64,000 nt of DNA. It comes from an uncultured Clostridia bacterium. Lineage in GTDB: Bacteria > Bacillota > Clostridia > Lachnospirales > CAG-274. Location: positions 124,001 through 188,000 of the forward strand of contig CALWSP010000025.1 of the NCBI GenBank assembly GCA_944384235.1, written 5' to 3'. Under the pieces are notes generated by a model. That model had not been told where the DNA came from. It saw only the letters and a list, made by a program, of their open reading frames with translations, and searched no databases. This document shows, piece by piece, positions 14,623-63,513 of this stretch (position 1 is its first letter; each line of letters begins with the position of its first letter). The translations under genes and the position numbers were made by a program.

Positions 14623-14893
14623 AAAAAAGCCCCTGACTATAAAAAGTCAGGGACGAATTATCGTGTTACCACCCTAGTTCAAGTGCACATCACTGTACAC
14701 TCCTTAACAGGTTCAATCAAACCTTGGCCTATAACGGGGCTACCGTTCCACTCCTACTAAATTCTGAGGGAAAGCTCCTGAGTGATAAATAAAATCTAAG
14801 ACTTAATGTCTTTCAGCAAACGACATCTCTCTGGAAAGCCTTTTTGAAATTACCTGTATCTCAATCAACACTTTTAAAACAATTAAATAATTA
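14623..14893 (-). promoter_or_regulatory. T-box leader, predicted tRNA-Ile responsive, upstream of ilvN-ilvC
   Basis: The minus-strand leader has all hallmarks of a T-box. These are a stem I with the AGAGAGATGTCG arm and its partner GACAT, the T-box sequence AGGGTGGTAACACG at 14662-14675, and an intrinsic terminator (8-bp stem, 14631-14638 with 14645-14652, then six U). Aligning the strand after stem I with the valS T-box in this window (ATC-A-CTCAGGAGC against GTA-G-CTCTGGAG) places the specifier at 14784-14786, reading ATC for isoleucine. Uncharged tRNA-Ile would favour the antiterminator and read-through into ilvN. Confidence 0.93.
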
Positions 14894-20313: not shown

Positions 20314-20346
20314 ATTTAGACCAGCTTTAAAAATAAATATTAAAAT

Positions 20347-20470
20347 TTATGCTAGGGGAGTTTATTTACTGAGACGTTTCATACGGACCCTTATTACTTG
20401 AACCAGATAATACTGGCGTAAGGAAGCAAATAAAAATCCTTTTAGCATAAAAACTAAGGAGGATTTTTTT
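20347..20470 (+). promoter_or_regulatory. TPP (thi-box) riboswitch controlling thiT
   Basis: The core of the thi-box is present: GGGGAG, then ACTGAGA in the pyrimidine-sensing arm, then ACCC, TTGAACC and CTGGCGTAAGGAAGC, ending about 20427. Two competing helices follow from the sequence. TTATGCTA (20347-20354) pairs exactly with TAGCATAA (20443-20450), while AAAAATCC (20432-20439) can pair with GGATTTTT (20461-20468), which covers the SD AAGGAGG and resembles a terminator with a U run. TPP binding would therefore be expected to turn thiT off by sequestering the SD, by early termination, or both. Confidence 0.9.
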
Positions 20471-38732: not shown

Positions 38733-38965
38733 AAAAAAAGGACACTTCCATCTTTAAGGACGAAAGTATCCGTGGTACCACCTTAATTCCCTTTAACAAG
38801 GGCACTTAAAATCTTTAACGCAGAAATACGCTAAACCTACTACTACTTCAGCTTAGAAACTCCAGAGCTACCTTCAATACCCAATTCCACAAAGCACCTT
38901 TCAGCCACGAGTGCTTCTCTCTAAGAGTTTGGAATATCTACTCCTCTCCTTCAAAGTCAAAATCT
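38733..38965 (-). promoter_or_regulatory. T-box leader, predicted tRNA-Val responsive, upstream of valS
   Basis: The minus-strand leader shows an AGAGAGAAGCAC arm with its GGTGCT partner (stem I) and the T-box AAGGTGGTACCACGG at 38770-38784. A terminator stem follows (38740-38749 with 38762-38771) with a seven-U run. By alignment with the ilvN T-box, the specifier is at 38879-38881, reading GTA for valine, which fits the downstream gene. A second GTA lies nine bases upstream on the transcript at 38888-38890. The promoter probably lies within the end of the HPr-like gene, but I see no clear -35/-10 pair. Confidence 0.93.
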
Positions 38966-59341: not shown

Positions 59342-60355
59342 TTAATTGTTGTTTGTTTTAACAATTTTAGCATTTGCCTTTATATCTTCTGGCACATTAA
59401 TTCCAAGCTCAGCGGCTACATCTTCGTTAATAACAAGTTGAGGATTTTTCATATATTGAATAGGCATACTCTTAATATCTGCACCTTTAATAATTTCAAC
59501 AGCCATTTCACCAGTTTGTTTGCCTAAACTAGTGTAGTCAATAGCCACAGAAGCTAAACCACCGTTGTTTACAAGCCCCATTTCCCCCACAATAACAGGC
59601 ATACCAGCTGGGTTTGTAATGCTAGCTACTAAAGGCATACTAGATGCCATAACATTGTCAGTTGGAATGTATATAGCGTCGCTATTTCCAATTATGGATT
59701 GAGTAACTTGAGCCACATCGTTGCTGTTAGAAACAGTCTTTTTTTCCATTTCAAGGCCTAAAGCCTTTCCAGCCTCCTCAGCTATATTAGCTTGAATAAG
59801 GGAGTTTTGCTCTCCAGAGCAATATAAAATTGTAACTTTCTTAGCATCTGGCAATAACTTAACTAAAAGGTCCATTTGCTCCTTAATAGGTGTTAAATCA
59901 GATGTTCCTGAAACATTACAATTTGGAAGTTCATTGCTTTGAACAAGCCCTGATTCATAGGGGTCAGTAACAGCTGTAACTAAAATTGGAATTTCACTTG
60001 TTTCTGTTGCAATAGATTGAGCAGATGGAGTAGCAACTGCTAAAATCAAATCTTTTTTATCAGAAACAAATTTTTGTGAAATAGTTTTTAAATTAGACTG
60101 GTCACCTTGAGCATTTAAAATTTCAACTTTCATATTTTGCCCATCTACATATCCAGCTTCGTTTAAAGCTTGTAAAAAACCGTTGCTGGCTTCGTCCATA
60201 GCTTGATGTTCAATAAATTTTATAATACCTATGTCAACAGGCTCTGAAATGCCTGCACTACTGCTATTTTCATCTTTTGCTTCACCACTTCCACACCCTG
60301 CTAAAAGAAGCAAACTAAGCGAAGCTGTAACAAAAGTTAAAAAAAACTTTTTCAT
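59342..60355 (-). CDS. ABC transporter substrate-binding lipoprotein (PF04392, TrpX-like)
   Basis: The 337-residue lipoprotein starts at 60355 after GGAGG and has a lipobox LLLAGC near residue 22. The mature part resembles the ABC_sub_bind (PF04392) family: GIIKFIEHQAMDEASNGFLQ, VATPSAQSIATETSEIPIL, VTDPYESGLV and PNCNVSGTSDLTP. Related systems (TrpXYZ) take up tryptophan or other aromatic amino acids. The actual substrate is not decided by sequence. It has its own consensus promoter. Confidence 0.9.
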   Translation of the reverse strand: MKKFFLTFVTASLSLLLLAGCGSGEAKDENSSSAGISEPVDIGIIKFIEHQAMDEASNGFLQALNEAGYVDGQNMKVEILNAQGDQSNLKTISQKFVSDKKDLILAVATPSAQSIATETSEIPILVTAVTDPYESGLVQSNELPNCNVSGTSDLTPIKEQMDLLVKLLPDAKKVTILYCSGEQNSLIQANIAEEAGKALGLEMEKKTVSNSNDVAQVTQSIIGNSDAIYIPTDNVMASSMPLVASITNPAGMPVIVGEMGLVNNGGLASVAIDYTSLGKQTGEMAVEIIKGADIKSMPIQYMKNPQLVINEDVAAELGINVPEDIKANAKIVKTNNN

Positions 60356-60394
60356 ACATAACCTCCAATAAATAAACAAATACATTTATTCCTA

Positions 60395-60423
60395 ATTTTA
60401 CTTTAAATTAAACTAAATGTCAA
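60395..60423 (-). promoter_or_regulatory. Promoter of the binding-protein operon
   Basis: On the minus strand, TTGACA (60418-60423) and TAAAAT (60395-60400) are 17 bases apart. It lies after the terminator of the candidate small RNA, so the two are separate transcripts. Confidence 0.8.
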
Positions 60424-60460
60424 CTATTTATATCTTTAAAACAAATAAATTAATAAAATA

Positions 60461-60588
60461 GAAAAAAGCAGCCAACGAACAGCTGCTTTTTCCTAAAGAG
60501 AAGGTATTTTTATGGGGTTTACAGTTTAATTTACATATTTGAGGGATGTATAAACTGTAATGTGAAAATATTTAGGGGTTTTCACAGT
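60461..60588 (-). ncRNA. Candidate C-rich-loop regulatory small RNA
   Basis: The stretch between two convergent-free genes on the minus strand reads as a structured RNA of about 125 nt. A TATAAT box lies at 60593-60598. Hairpin 1 has an 8-bp stem (60561-60568 with 60579-60586) and a loop with CCCC. Hairpin 2 has a 9-bp outer stem (60520-60528 with 60551-60559) and a 5-bp inner stem (60532-60536 with 60546-60550) with the loop CCCTCAAAT. Next come an unpaired AAACCCCAT and a CCTTCTC tract. The last element is an intrinsic terminator (60463-60472 with 60482-60491) ending in six U. Unpaired C-rich motifs that can pair with SD sequences are the hallmark of Rsa/RoxS-type Gram-positive sRNAs. No convincing -35 box is seen. 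Confidence 0.6.
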
Positions 60589-60727
60589 CATTATTATAGC
60601 ACCATTCAATAGATAAGTGTTCACAAATAAAAAAGTTTTTTAGCCCTTTTTTTGTTCAACTTTATAACATTTTGTCGAAAACATAAATTTTATACATTTT
60701 TCTACAAAAAATTTAACCATCTTTTGT

Positions 60728-61267
60728 TCAACTTTCAAGACTTTCCAAATACTTAATTAAGTTCACATCTCCGTCAACACTAACCCCTTTTTCAAATAAC
60801 TTTCTATCTTCCACACTTAAAGAGCTAATAGGCGTTGATGTAACTTCCTTTAAAATGTCGCTATCTCTGTAAAAAACAGCAATATACCCCTCGTCTTCCT
60901 TTAATATATAGTGTTGAGAGCTAGTTGAATCCACACTTTTGTTAAAAATAACCTTGTCTTTACTAAATTCAGTCATTTCCCATTGACTGTAAGCCTTTTC
61001 AACTTGCTCTCTGTCCCAACCAACCATAAATTGCTGAGGTAAATCTTGCTTTGTTTCAGAAAAACCGTCTGAATAATTGTATACAAACTCTAAAATAGTG
61101 TTTTCGTTGATAGTGTTTTCTAAACTTGCTTCAGCCATAACCGTGTCATTTTGAAAATTTTTCACACTCTCCTTGTCAAAACTAACAAAATAACCTGCTA
61201 CTCCACCACAAATAGTAAAAACTAGAGAACCAAAAACAATTGCAAACCATTTAATAACTTTTTTCAT
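60728..61267 (-). CDS. Membrane-anchored protein with BofC C-terminal-like domain
   Basis: The 179-residue product has one N-terminal helix (about residues 6-28) and an extracytoplasmic domain. The C-terminal part, YILKEDEGYIAVFYRDSD then ISSLSVEDRKLFEKGVSVDGDVNLIKYLES, resembles the BofC C-terminal family, which in Bacillus restrains the SpoIVB/sigma-K checkpoint. In many clostridia such domains occur outside that pathway. I am not sure of the role, and it is not next to sporulation genes here. Confidence 0.55.
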   Translation of the reverse strand: MKKVIKWFAIVFGSLVFTICGGVAGYFVSFDKESVKNFQNDTVMAEASLENTINENTILEFVYNYSDGFSETKQDLPQQFMVGWDREQVEKAYSQWEMTEFSKDKVIFNKSVDSTSSQHYILKEDEGYIAVFYRDSDILKEVTSTPISSLSVEDRKLFEKGVSVDGDVNLIKYLESLES

Positions 61268-61317: not shown

Positions 61318-63513
61318 TTAATTATTTAGTTCTTCCCAAAACTTGTCTGTATTAAATTGTATTTTTTCTAAAATATCTCTGTTTTCCTCTTTTAGTAAAT
61401 GTTTAGTTCTTCCCATAGCCCCTAAAAAACTGCTAACATCTATTTTGTTTTTAGGCTTGTATGTCACCCTTTTAACTCCTCTTTCAATTTCGTATAAAGG
61501 GAAATAGCAACTTTCAACTGCCTTTTTAATAACATCTCTTTCATATCTTGCTTCGTCTTGCCAGTTTAAAGGGCAAGCAGAAATAGCTTTTACATAGGCA
61601 AGCCCAAAGTTGTCTGCATAATATTGAGCTTTTTTAGCTTTAACAATAAAGTCTTGAGGGTTGCTTTCTGCCACAGTTGCAATGTAATTAATTCCAGTAG
61701 CTTCAAATAGCTTAACTGAATTTTTAGGTAAATACTCTTTTCCTCTTTCAACTCCACCAATGTGGCTTGTGCTACTTTTTGCTCCTAAAGGAGTTGTATA
61801 ACTATATTGATAACCTGTGTTCATATACCCACCATTGTCATATTCAAAAATAATCATATTGTGGTTTCTAATAGCAGTAGCTAAGGCTGAACCTAAACCA
61901 ATATCCATTCCACCATCACCACTTACCATAATAAATGTTATTTTTCCTTTTTCTATTTCTCCACGCCTTTGCCTTTCTTTGTACCCCTCTAAAATTCCAG
62001 ATAATGTTGCGGCTCCGTTTTGAAATAAGTTGTGAACATAATTTATGTTAAATGATGTCTTAGGGTAATTTGTTGTAACAACCATACCACAACCTGTTTG
62101 AAATAACATAACAACATTTCCCTCTATCCCCTTTAAAAATAAATTTAAATTCACAGGTATTCCACACCCTGCACAAGCACTATGTCCAGATACAACCCTC
62201 TTTGGCATATTTAAGGCTTTTTTTATGTTTATTTTCTTAACTTTAACTTCTTTTCCATCGTCCTCTATTTCATATCCCATAGAAGAGTTAACTTCGTCAA
62301 TAACATCAAAATATTTCTCTTTTTTAAAGCTTTTTTCTTCACCAATTCCATAATAATCAAATTCTTTAATTTTTTCACCTTTAACCTTGCTAAAACCTAA
62401 GTTGAAAAACTCTTCTACATCTTCAACATATAAATCCTTGCCACCAAGGCCATACACCCTTGAAATAACCTTTCCTTTAACTTTATTGTCAAAAAAACTA
62501 GCCTTTATTTCATTTGATAAACTTCCACCACTATTGTAAGAATCTTGCCTGTCCCCAATTATAATAACACTAGCATTTTTACATCTTTTTGACACTTCCT
62601 CTCTAGGAAATGGTCTTAAAGTATTAAGAGTTAAACAGCCTACTTTCTTCCCTTTTGCCCTCATTTTGTCAACTGCAACTTTAGATGTGTCAAAACTAGA
62701 ACCAAGAGATATAAAAATAACTTCTGCATCTTCTGTAAAATACGAGTTTATAAAAGAATGCTTTCTTCCACTTAATTTATAAAAATTTTCAAACTCATCT
62801 TCAAAAACATCTCTAGCTAAATTAATAGCATTATATAATTGATACTTGTTGTTAATAACATCTGCTTCGTTCATATAAGAACCTATTGTAATTGGCTCTT
62901 TAACATTAATTGCAGTGTATAAAGGCTCGTTTTTCCCAACATAGCTTAAAACATCTTCCTTTTTCTCAAAAACTTGCATATTCCTTTTCTGATGGCTTGT
63001 GAAAAAACCATCGTAAGCAATTATAATAGGCACTTTAACTTTTTCAGAAACCTTTAAACCAATTAAATTAAAATCATATGCCTCTTGGTTGTCCTTTGCA
63101 AACATAATAATCCAACCAGTGTTTAAACAAAACATAATGTCACTATGGTCCCCTTTAATACATAAAGGCCCAGATACAGTTCTTGTTGCAACATTTAAAA
63201 CCATAGGCATTCTAGTTCCAGCTTGCACAGGAAGTTGCTCTAAACAATATAAAAGCCCATTTGCACTTGTAGCGTTTATAACCCTTGCGCCAGATAAACT
63301 TGCACCATAACATATCCCTTGTGCCGAATGTTCTCCCTCGGCACTAATCATAACTGTGCTAACTTCTCCATTGTTTTTCAGCTCGTCTATTCCCTCAGCT
63401 ATTTGGGTAGACGGAGTTATAGGGTAATATCCCATAACGTGAAAATCTATTTGCTTGCTAGCGTAACAAACTGCTTCGTTTCCTGATAAAAAAACTTTCT
63501 TTTGGCAAAACAT
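61318..63513 (-). CDS. porAB: Fused alpha-beta 2-oxoacid:ferredoxin oxidoreductase
   Basis: The 731-residue protein joins two subunits that are usually separate. The first about 430 residues are the alpha subunit (GYYPITPSTQIAEGIDEL, GEHSAQGICYGASLSGARV, GPLCIKGDHSDIM). The rest is the beta subunit with TPP and Fe-S sites: CAGCGIPVNLN, QTGCGMVVTTNYP, MVSGDGGMDIGLGSALA and the final Cys in SACPLNWQDE. The enzyme decarboxylates a 2-oxoacid to an acyl-CoA and reduces ferredoxin, which Rnf could then use. Pyruvate is the likely substrate; 2-oxoisovalerate cannot be excluded. The gene is 17 bases after its ferredoxin-bearing partner. Confidence 0.9.
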   Translation of the reverse strand: MFCQKKVFLSGNEAVCYASKQIDFHVMGYYPITPSTQIAEGIDELKNNGEVSTVMISAEGEHSAQGICYGASLSGARVINATSANGLLYCLEQLPVQAGTRMPMVLNVATRTVSGPLCIKGDHSDIMFCLNTGWIIMFAKDNQEAYDFNLIGLKVSEKVKVPIIIAYDGFFTSHQKRNMQVFEKKEDVLSYVGKNEPLYTAINVKEPITIGSYMNEADVINNKYQLYNAINLARDVFEDEFENFYKLSGRKHSFINSYFTEDAEVIFISLGSSFDTSKVAVDKMRAKGKKVGCLTLNTLRPFPREEVSKRCKNASVIIIGDRQDSYNSGGSLSNEIKASFFDNKVKGKVISRVYGLGGKDLYVEDVEEFFNLGFSKVKGEKIKEFDYYGIGEEKSFKKEKYFDVIDEVNSSMGYEIEDDGKEVKVKKINIKKALNMPKRVVSGHSACAGCGIPVNLNLFLKGIEGNVVMLFQTGCGMVVTTNYPKTSFNINYVHNLFQNGAATLSGILEGYKERQRRGEIEKGKITFIMVSGDGGMDIGLGSALATAIRNHNMIIFEYDNGGYMNTGYQYSYTTPLGAKSSTSHIGGVERGKEYLPKNSVKLFEATGINYIATVAESNPQDFIVKAKKAQYYADNFGLAYVKAISACPLNWQDEARYERDVIKKAVESCYFPLYEIERGVKRVTYKPKNKIDVSSFLGAMGRTKHLLKEENRDILEKIQFNTDKFWEELNN

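Follow-up and report, generated by a model that had tools for sequence, protein, structure and literature searches.

In this study, we analysed a small RNA (sRNA) locus on the minus strand of a 64-kb stretch of contig CALWSP010000025.1 from an uncultured Clostridia bacterium (hereafter the window; all coordinates are positions within it). The locus is probably a stand-alone gene for an approximately 125-nt trans-acting, C-rich base-pairing sRNA that would block Shine-Dalgarno (SD) sequences in a RoxS/RsaE- or FsrA-like manner. Gene structure, conservation, covariation, distribution throughout the order Lachnospirales and a preference for ribosome-binding sites were all computed, and the locus probably represents an overlooked, widespread gene regulator. 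The mechanism class to which it would belong, C-rich base-pairing sRNAs, is known. The family itself appears to be new, because it is not in Rfam and none was found in open-access papers.

Structure and covariation of the sRNA gene

The minus-strand fold of 60588-60455 has an energy of -36 kcal/mol, compared with -13.3 +/- 2.8 kcal/mol for shuffled sequences (z = -8.0), and none of the 200 shuffles folded as well as the sRNA strand. Folding and a terminator scan recovered, all on the minus strand, the parts that an earlier note on this DNA had described, namely two stem-loops, a free CCCC (60517-60514), a CCTTCTC tract (60504-60498) and a terminal intrinsic terminator with six U. Apart from the stem at 60495-60459, the region yielded no terminator (0.1 would be expected by chance), and the gene-free gap of ~340 bases reported in the same note corresponds to an interval free of open reading frames (60386-60727). 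The features of the locus are as follows.

60461-60588, minus strand: whole sRNA gene, ~125 nt (fold, BLAST, covariance models R1 and R2)
60615-60627, minus strand: upstream element TTTGTGAACACTT in the -35 region, TTTRTGMACACTT order-wide (alignment of upstream regions)
60593-60601, minus strand: extended -10 promoter TGCTATAAT (sequence; TGnTATAAT near-invariant among relatives)
60561-60586, minus strand: hairpin 1, arms TGTGAAAA / TTTTCACA, loop CCCCTAAATA (fold; near-invariant in the family)
60519-60560, minus strand: hairpin 2, 15 pairs plus an internal bulge, loop CCCTCAAAT (fold; compensatory changes)
60494-60518, minus strand: single-stranded linker ACCCCAUAAAAAUACCUUCUCUUUA, comprising the free CCCC and the anti-SD-like ACCUUCUCUUU (conservation; complementarity to ribosome-binding sites)
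60459-60495, minus strand: intrinsic terminator, 16 pairs, 5-nt loop, six U (fold, terminator scan; pair changes in relatives)
60728-61267, minus strand: upstream neighbour gene, kept beside the sRNA in many relatives (tblastn synteny; Pfam)
59342-60355, minus strand: downstream ATP-binding cassette (ABC) transporter substrate-binding gene, outside the sRNA (own promoter at 60423-60395)

Transcription is predicted to start near 60588-60586, as judged from the position of TGCTATAAT. Hairpin 1 consists of the stem UGUGAAAA/UUUUCACA around the loop CCCCUAAAUA, and the loop of hairpin 2 reads CCCUCAAAU; the C-rich sequences CCCCTAAATA of loop 1 and CCCTCAAAT of loop 2 are located at 60578-60569 and 60545-60537, respectively. 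The ACCCCAUAAAAAUACCUUCUCUUU linker between hairpin 2 and the terminator is single-stranded, and this linker and the C-rich loops are mostly unpaired in the computed folds.

A BLAST search of 60 relatives with a 156-base query yielded matches in all seven genomes of the genus, with 73-99% identity across relatives; among the family genomes searched, two (G007 and G034) gave no match. The family alignment shows almost no variation in hairpin 1, the linker and the -10 box, and the changes seen in hairpin 2 and the terminator stem are compensated. Covariation was counted on 44 sequences. Changes on both sides were found in 20 of the 35 pairs, and the covariation score was 0.161 versus 0.096 for shuffled alignments (0 of 500) and at most 0.091 in slid controls. 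Compensatory changes are present at 6 of the 10 outer pairs of hairpin 2, and both sides have changed in relatives at 10 of the 12 pairs of the terminator. Hairpin 1 alone showed no covariation within the 44-sequence set, because it hardly varies there. The linker hardly changes either among the aligned sequences, some of which were selected by motif, or in other families. What is kept throughout the order is not the terminator alone, as would have spoken against the proposal of the earlier note, but the stems, loops, linker and promoter together, with compensatory changes. A pattern-scan match in L076 has neither promoter nor terminator and was regarded as a chance match.

The same kind of evidence bears on the idea that the locus is a short coding gene. 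The window copy does contain a GTG-started frame of 19 codons. However, the frame ranges from 4 to 43 codons in length and the peptide is not conserved, because of indels in the loops, and the changes compensate at base pairs instead. A coding function is thus extremely improbable.

Distribution in the order Lachnospirales

Covariance model R1 matched 139 of the 295 genomes of the order (one match listed per genome). Model R2, which was built from 13 Lachnospiraceae-type copies without any from the window's family, matched 195 of 294 order genomes, usually with one copy per genome; these counts depend on strict filters and on the genomes sampled. R2 scored the window's own RNA at E = 8e-7, which is a strong test, although not a fully independent one. 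Outside the order Lachnospirales, the sRNA is essentially absent. In the wider class, 12 of the 392 genomes gave a match, and 11 of these 12 belong to the order. The twelfth (G559) looks like a false match, which lacks the C-rich hairpins and, judged by eye, resembles the antisense of a coding-gene start. R2 matches elsewhere in the phylum but outside the order were partial, reached ~20-22 bits only, and were taken as chance.

Distant copies have the same layout, with hairpin 1 rebuilt (for example as UAUUGUA/UACAAUA or GUAACC/GGUUAC) around the same C-rich loop. Hairpin 1 thus covaries between families, with figures that lean upward (the underlying alignment was made to fit the model and contains weak matches). 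In the Lachnospiraceae-type copies, ~60 nt are almost invariant (GUAAAAACCCCCCAAUACAUUAUAUAGUUUUUGCUACACCCCAUAAGAAGAAAUACCUUCUCC). Named carriers, whose taxonomy was the basis for taking the order as Lachnospirales, include Candidatus Gallispira, an Anaerotignum metagenome-assembled genome and Agathobacter rectalis DFI.5.28. Two or three dispersed copies were detected with R2 in G739, G122, G210, G269, G695, G183, G195 and G201. In one large-genome genus, second sRNA copies retain the anti-SD core, and three tandem copies, each with a promoter-like box and a terminator, are present on the minus strand of L139 (G049) at 1469-2240.

Spread by phages or plasmids was considered and rejected. A phage collection contained no sRNA match. 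In the single viral-contig match, the sRNA lies at the contig end and was read as flanking host DNA; the single plasmid-collection match is a 250-kb Agathobacter replicon that carries tilS, hpt and ftsH. For Agathobacter rectalis DFI.5.28, which supplied the only named and complete replicon examined, the PLSDB gene table, from which RNA genes are left out, shows no feature under the sRNA.

Lachnospirales count among the most numerous bacteria of the gut, and descriptions of regulatory RNAs in them seem to be few. An sRNA that is present in about two-thirds of the well-assembled genomes sampled from the order and absent from Rfam would give ready access to the study of post-transcriptional control in these bacteria. 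Together, the covariance models and the conserved C-rich segments allow direct tests of it in members that can be cultured, for example Agathobacter and Anaerotignum. We tentatively raise the possibility, to which we give somewhat less than even weight, that this uncatalogued sRNA is an order-wide core regulator of the Lachnospirales, conserved beyond what a few targets would need, having a general anti-SD/translation or metabolic role and multiplied in some lineages. If so, it would act in a large part of the gut bacteria of humans and animals.

Proposed base pairing and relation to known sRNAs

As a C-rich base-pairing sRNA, the RNA would be transcribed from its own strong extended -10 promoter and ended by its own terminator. 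Hairpin 1 would cap the 5' end and expose its C-rich loop, and loop 2, the free CCCC and the anti-SD-like ACCUUCUC would remain single-stranded. These C-rich segments would pair with the G-rich SD/start regions of several mRNAs, and pairing would block ribosome entry and alter mRNA stability, as in RoxS and FsrA. The general hallmarks of such sRNAs are present: the gene has a promoter and a terminator of its own, it lacks a conserved reading frame, and the unpaired C-rich segments are complementary to ribosome-binding sites.

A target scan over ~0.8 Mb of stretches gave predicted single-genome candidates. In silico hybridisation covered start and interior regions of genes from about half of this genome. 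The four C-rich segments favour gene starts over gene interiors by 1.8-3.1 kcal/mol on average. When start preference was compared with that of shuffled versions, three of the segments were equalled by 1/40, 1/40 and 0/40, and the anti-SD segment gave a weaker result (5/40); a control arm of hairpin 2 had no start preference. Thus, the suggestion of the earlier note that the C-rich parts block SD sites gains a computed preference for ribosome-binding sites, and the blocking itself keeps the standing of a proposal. The only very strong pairing partner seen is a LUD-domain gene. In three genomes of one genus of the family (G025, G031 and G036), ~25 nt of the linker can pair with the start codon and ribosome-binding site of this gene, with a pairing energy of -35.7 kcal/mol (computed in full for the G031 copy), compared with only about -8 to -18 kcal/mol for LUD orthologs elsewhere. 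The LUD-domain gene is therefore a lineage-specific candidate target, as judged from complementarity. This LUD-domain gene, with its linker-complementary start region, is located at L046 918-1553 on the minus strand.

Several points weigh against a trans-acting base-pairing sRNA. Part of the SD preference would be shown by any C-rich sequence. No single conserved target was found, and exact long complements recur only as the sRNA's own copies: searches of 41 genomes with the pattern CCCATAN{1,3}AAAYACC and of 148 with GGAGAAGGTATTT returned mostly own copies and scattered unrelated matches, near the level of reversed-pattern controls, and a conserved long linker complement was rejected. The LUD-domain gene was likewise rejected as a family-wide target, since strong pairing occurs only in the three genomes named above. 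The 13 sequences of R2 were found via R1, and alignment A2 was partly picked by motif, so that the tests are not wholly independent. Finally, we infer, rather than observe, transcription, action in trans and the identity of the mRNA targets. The failure of the long-complement searches is, on the other hand, what an sRNA using short seeds on many mRNAs would lead one to expect.

Some of these points would equally suit a conserved RNA that mainly binds a protein or the ribosome, such as a 6S- or CsrA-sponge-like titrator or a global anti-SD mimic, in which the C-rich loops would serve for this binding and not as seeds for pairing with mRNAs. The near-invariance of ~60 nt in Lachnospiraceae exceeds the need of short seeds, a conserved specific target was not found, and the linker resembles the 3' tail of 16S rRNA. 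However, the C-rich loops and linker are mostly unpaired, as in base-pairing sRNAs, a pairing preference for start sites was computed, and Rfam gave no match to 6S RNA or any titrator at threshold. We consider such a mode of action unlikely.

Returning to the base-pairing reading, the earlier note had pointed to Rsa/RoxS-type sRNAs. The likeness in working stands: RoxS/RsaE of Bacillus and Staphylococcus is similarly ~100-130 nt long, with hairpins, several C-rich single-stranded regions, a terminator, a stand-alone gene and a proposed pairing with SD regions. Targets of RoxS/RsaE in central metabolism are repressed at the SD, and the corresponding observation for the present sRNA is the computed pairing preference. 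Membership does not stand. RsaE/RoxS membership was rejected, because covariance model RF01820 (RsaE/RoxS) was unmatched at the locus even up to E = 10; its cut-off was not reached in 21 genomes (this genome and 20 relatives), and a Bacillus subtilis control was found. A weak RsaE-like match (31 bits versus a cut-off of 79) is present at G000:C16:76-157 on the minus strand. In Rfam 15 as a whole, no family reached the gathering threshold for the window RNA and 20 diverse homologs, and nothing was near threshold for the Agathobacter copy. The dyad TGTGAAAA...TTTTCACA of the present sRNA sits where RoxS has a Rex site just downstream of the start. Its spacer is ~14 and variable, compared with ~4 in the Rex consensus, and the dyad is absent in Lachnospiraceae.

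The C-rich regions of RoxS and FsrA in Bacillota have been described as pairing with ribosome-binding sites (PMC5419742, PMC8464778). FsrA, the iron-sparing sRNA of Bacillus, resembles the present sRNA in its single-stranded C-rich regions, for which pairing with ribosome-binding sites has been proposed. Its targets include lutABC (PMC8464778), and the strongest partner of the present sRNA, in one genus, is a LUD-domain gene. FsrA differs in being shorter (84 nt) and Fur-controlled, and no sequence similarity to it has been established. CsfG of B. subtilis, which has C-rich regions and a similar predicted structure, has been grouped with RoxS and FsrA and is controlled by sigma-F and sigma-G (PMC8216469); in the title of the paper on CsfG itself, it is described as highly conserved among endospore formers. 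The present sRNA, in contrast, is confined to the Lachnospirales and has a promoter that, judged by eye, is of the sigma-A-like extended -10 type; no CsfG-type forespore (sigma-F/sigma-G) promoter was seen by eye, the conserved promoter being TGnTATAAT. It is set apart from CsfG by the description of the latter, not by sequence. No published description of the present sRNA was found in the open-access literature, and an earlier report in subscription papers is possible.

Promoter, gene neighbourhood and other features of the window

Upstream of the -10 sequence lie TTTRTGMACACTT, at the -35 region, and, farther away, A-rich tracts. A simple promoter scan did not list the TGCTATAAT promoter, because its -35 is poor, yet it is strongly conserved. 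Between the -35-like element and the -10 box, the spacing in the window's family can be read as ~19, and copies of the Anaerotignum type have 17. The TTTRTGMACACTT element (60615-60627, minus strand) is conserved order-wide with a spacing unusual for a -35 box and may be a regulator site instead.

According to tblastn synteny, the upstream gene (60728-61267) adjoins the sRNA across much of the family and also in several others; in Pfam, the ortholog from Anaerotignum matches the C-terminal domain of BofC, just at the cut-off. Many of the Lachnospiraceae-type copies have ftsH upstream instead. The gene order in L133 is upstream gene, sRNA, ftsH, and the copy of Agathobacter rectalis also lies beside ftsH. 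This conserved neighbourhood argues for a single, vertically inherited locus. The conserved linkage, the shared strand and the end of the upstream gene ~140 nt before the RNA would also suit a fragment derived from the 3' untranslated region of, or processed from, the mRNA of that gene. However, a near-invariant promoter lies directly before hairpin 1, and the upstream gene differs (ftsH or others) in Lachnospiraceae and other families, leaving such an origin highly improbable.

The downstream transporter adjoins the sRNA only within the window's genus, and therefore the sRNA is not its leader. The earlier note had rejected a simple leader on the grounds that the transporter operon has its own consensus promoter; this promoter, TTGACA-17-TAAAAT, scores 11/12 and lies behind the terminator. 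A cis-acting leader (attenuator or riboswitch-like) of the downstream gene would fit the shared strand, the terminator at the end and the long AU-rich gap. Besides the transporter's own promoter and an adjacency limited to one genus, it is contradicted by downstream genes that differ between families while the RNA persists and by a fold in which no antiterminator alternative was seen. We regard a leader as very unlikely, and the proposal of a discrete small RNA gene holds.

Elsewhere in the window, two T-box leaders (38753-38963 and 14646-14877, both minus strand) and a thiamine pyrophosphate (TPP) riboswitch (20344-20441, plus strand) scored above the Rfam threshold. On the minus strand, 61318-63513 encodes a 731-aa protein that combines the POR_N/PFOR_II and TPP-binding domains of 2-oxoacid:ferredoxin oxidoreductase in one chain.
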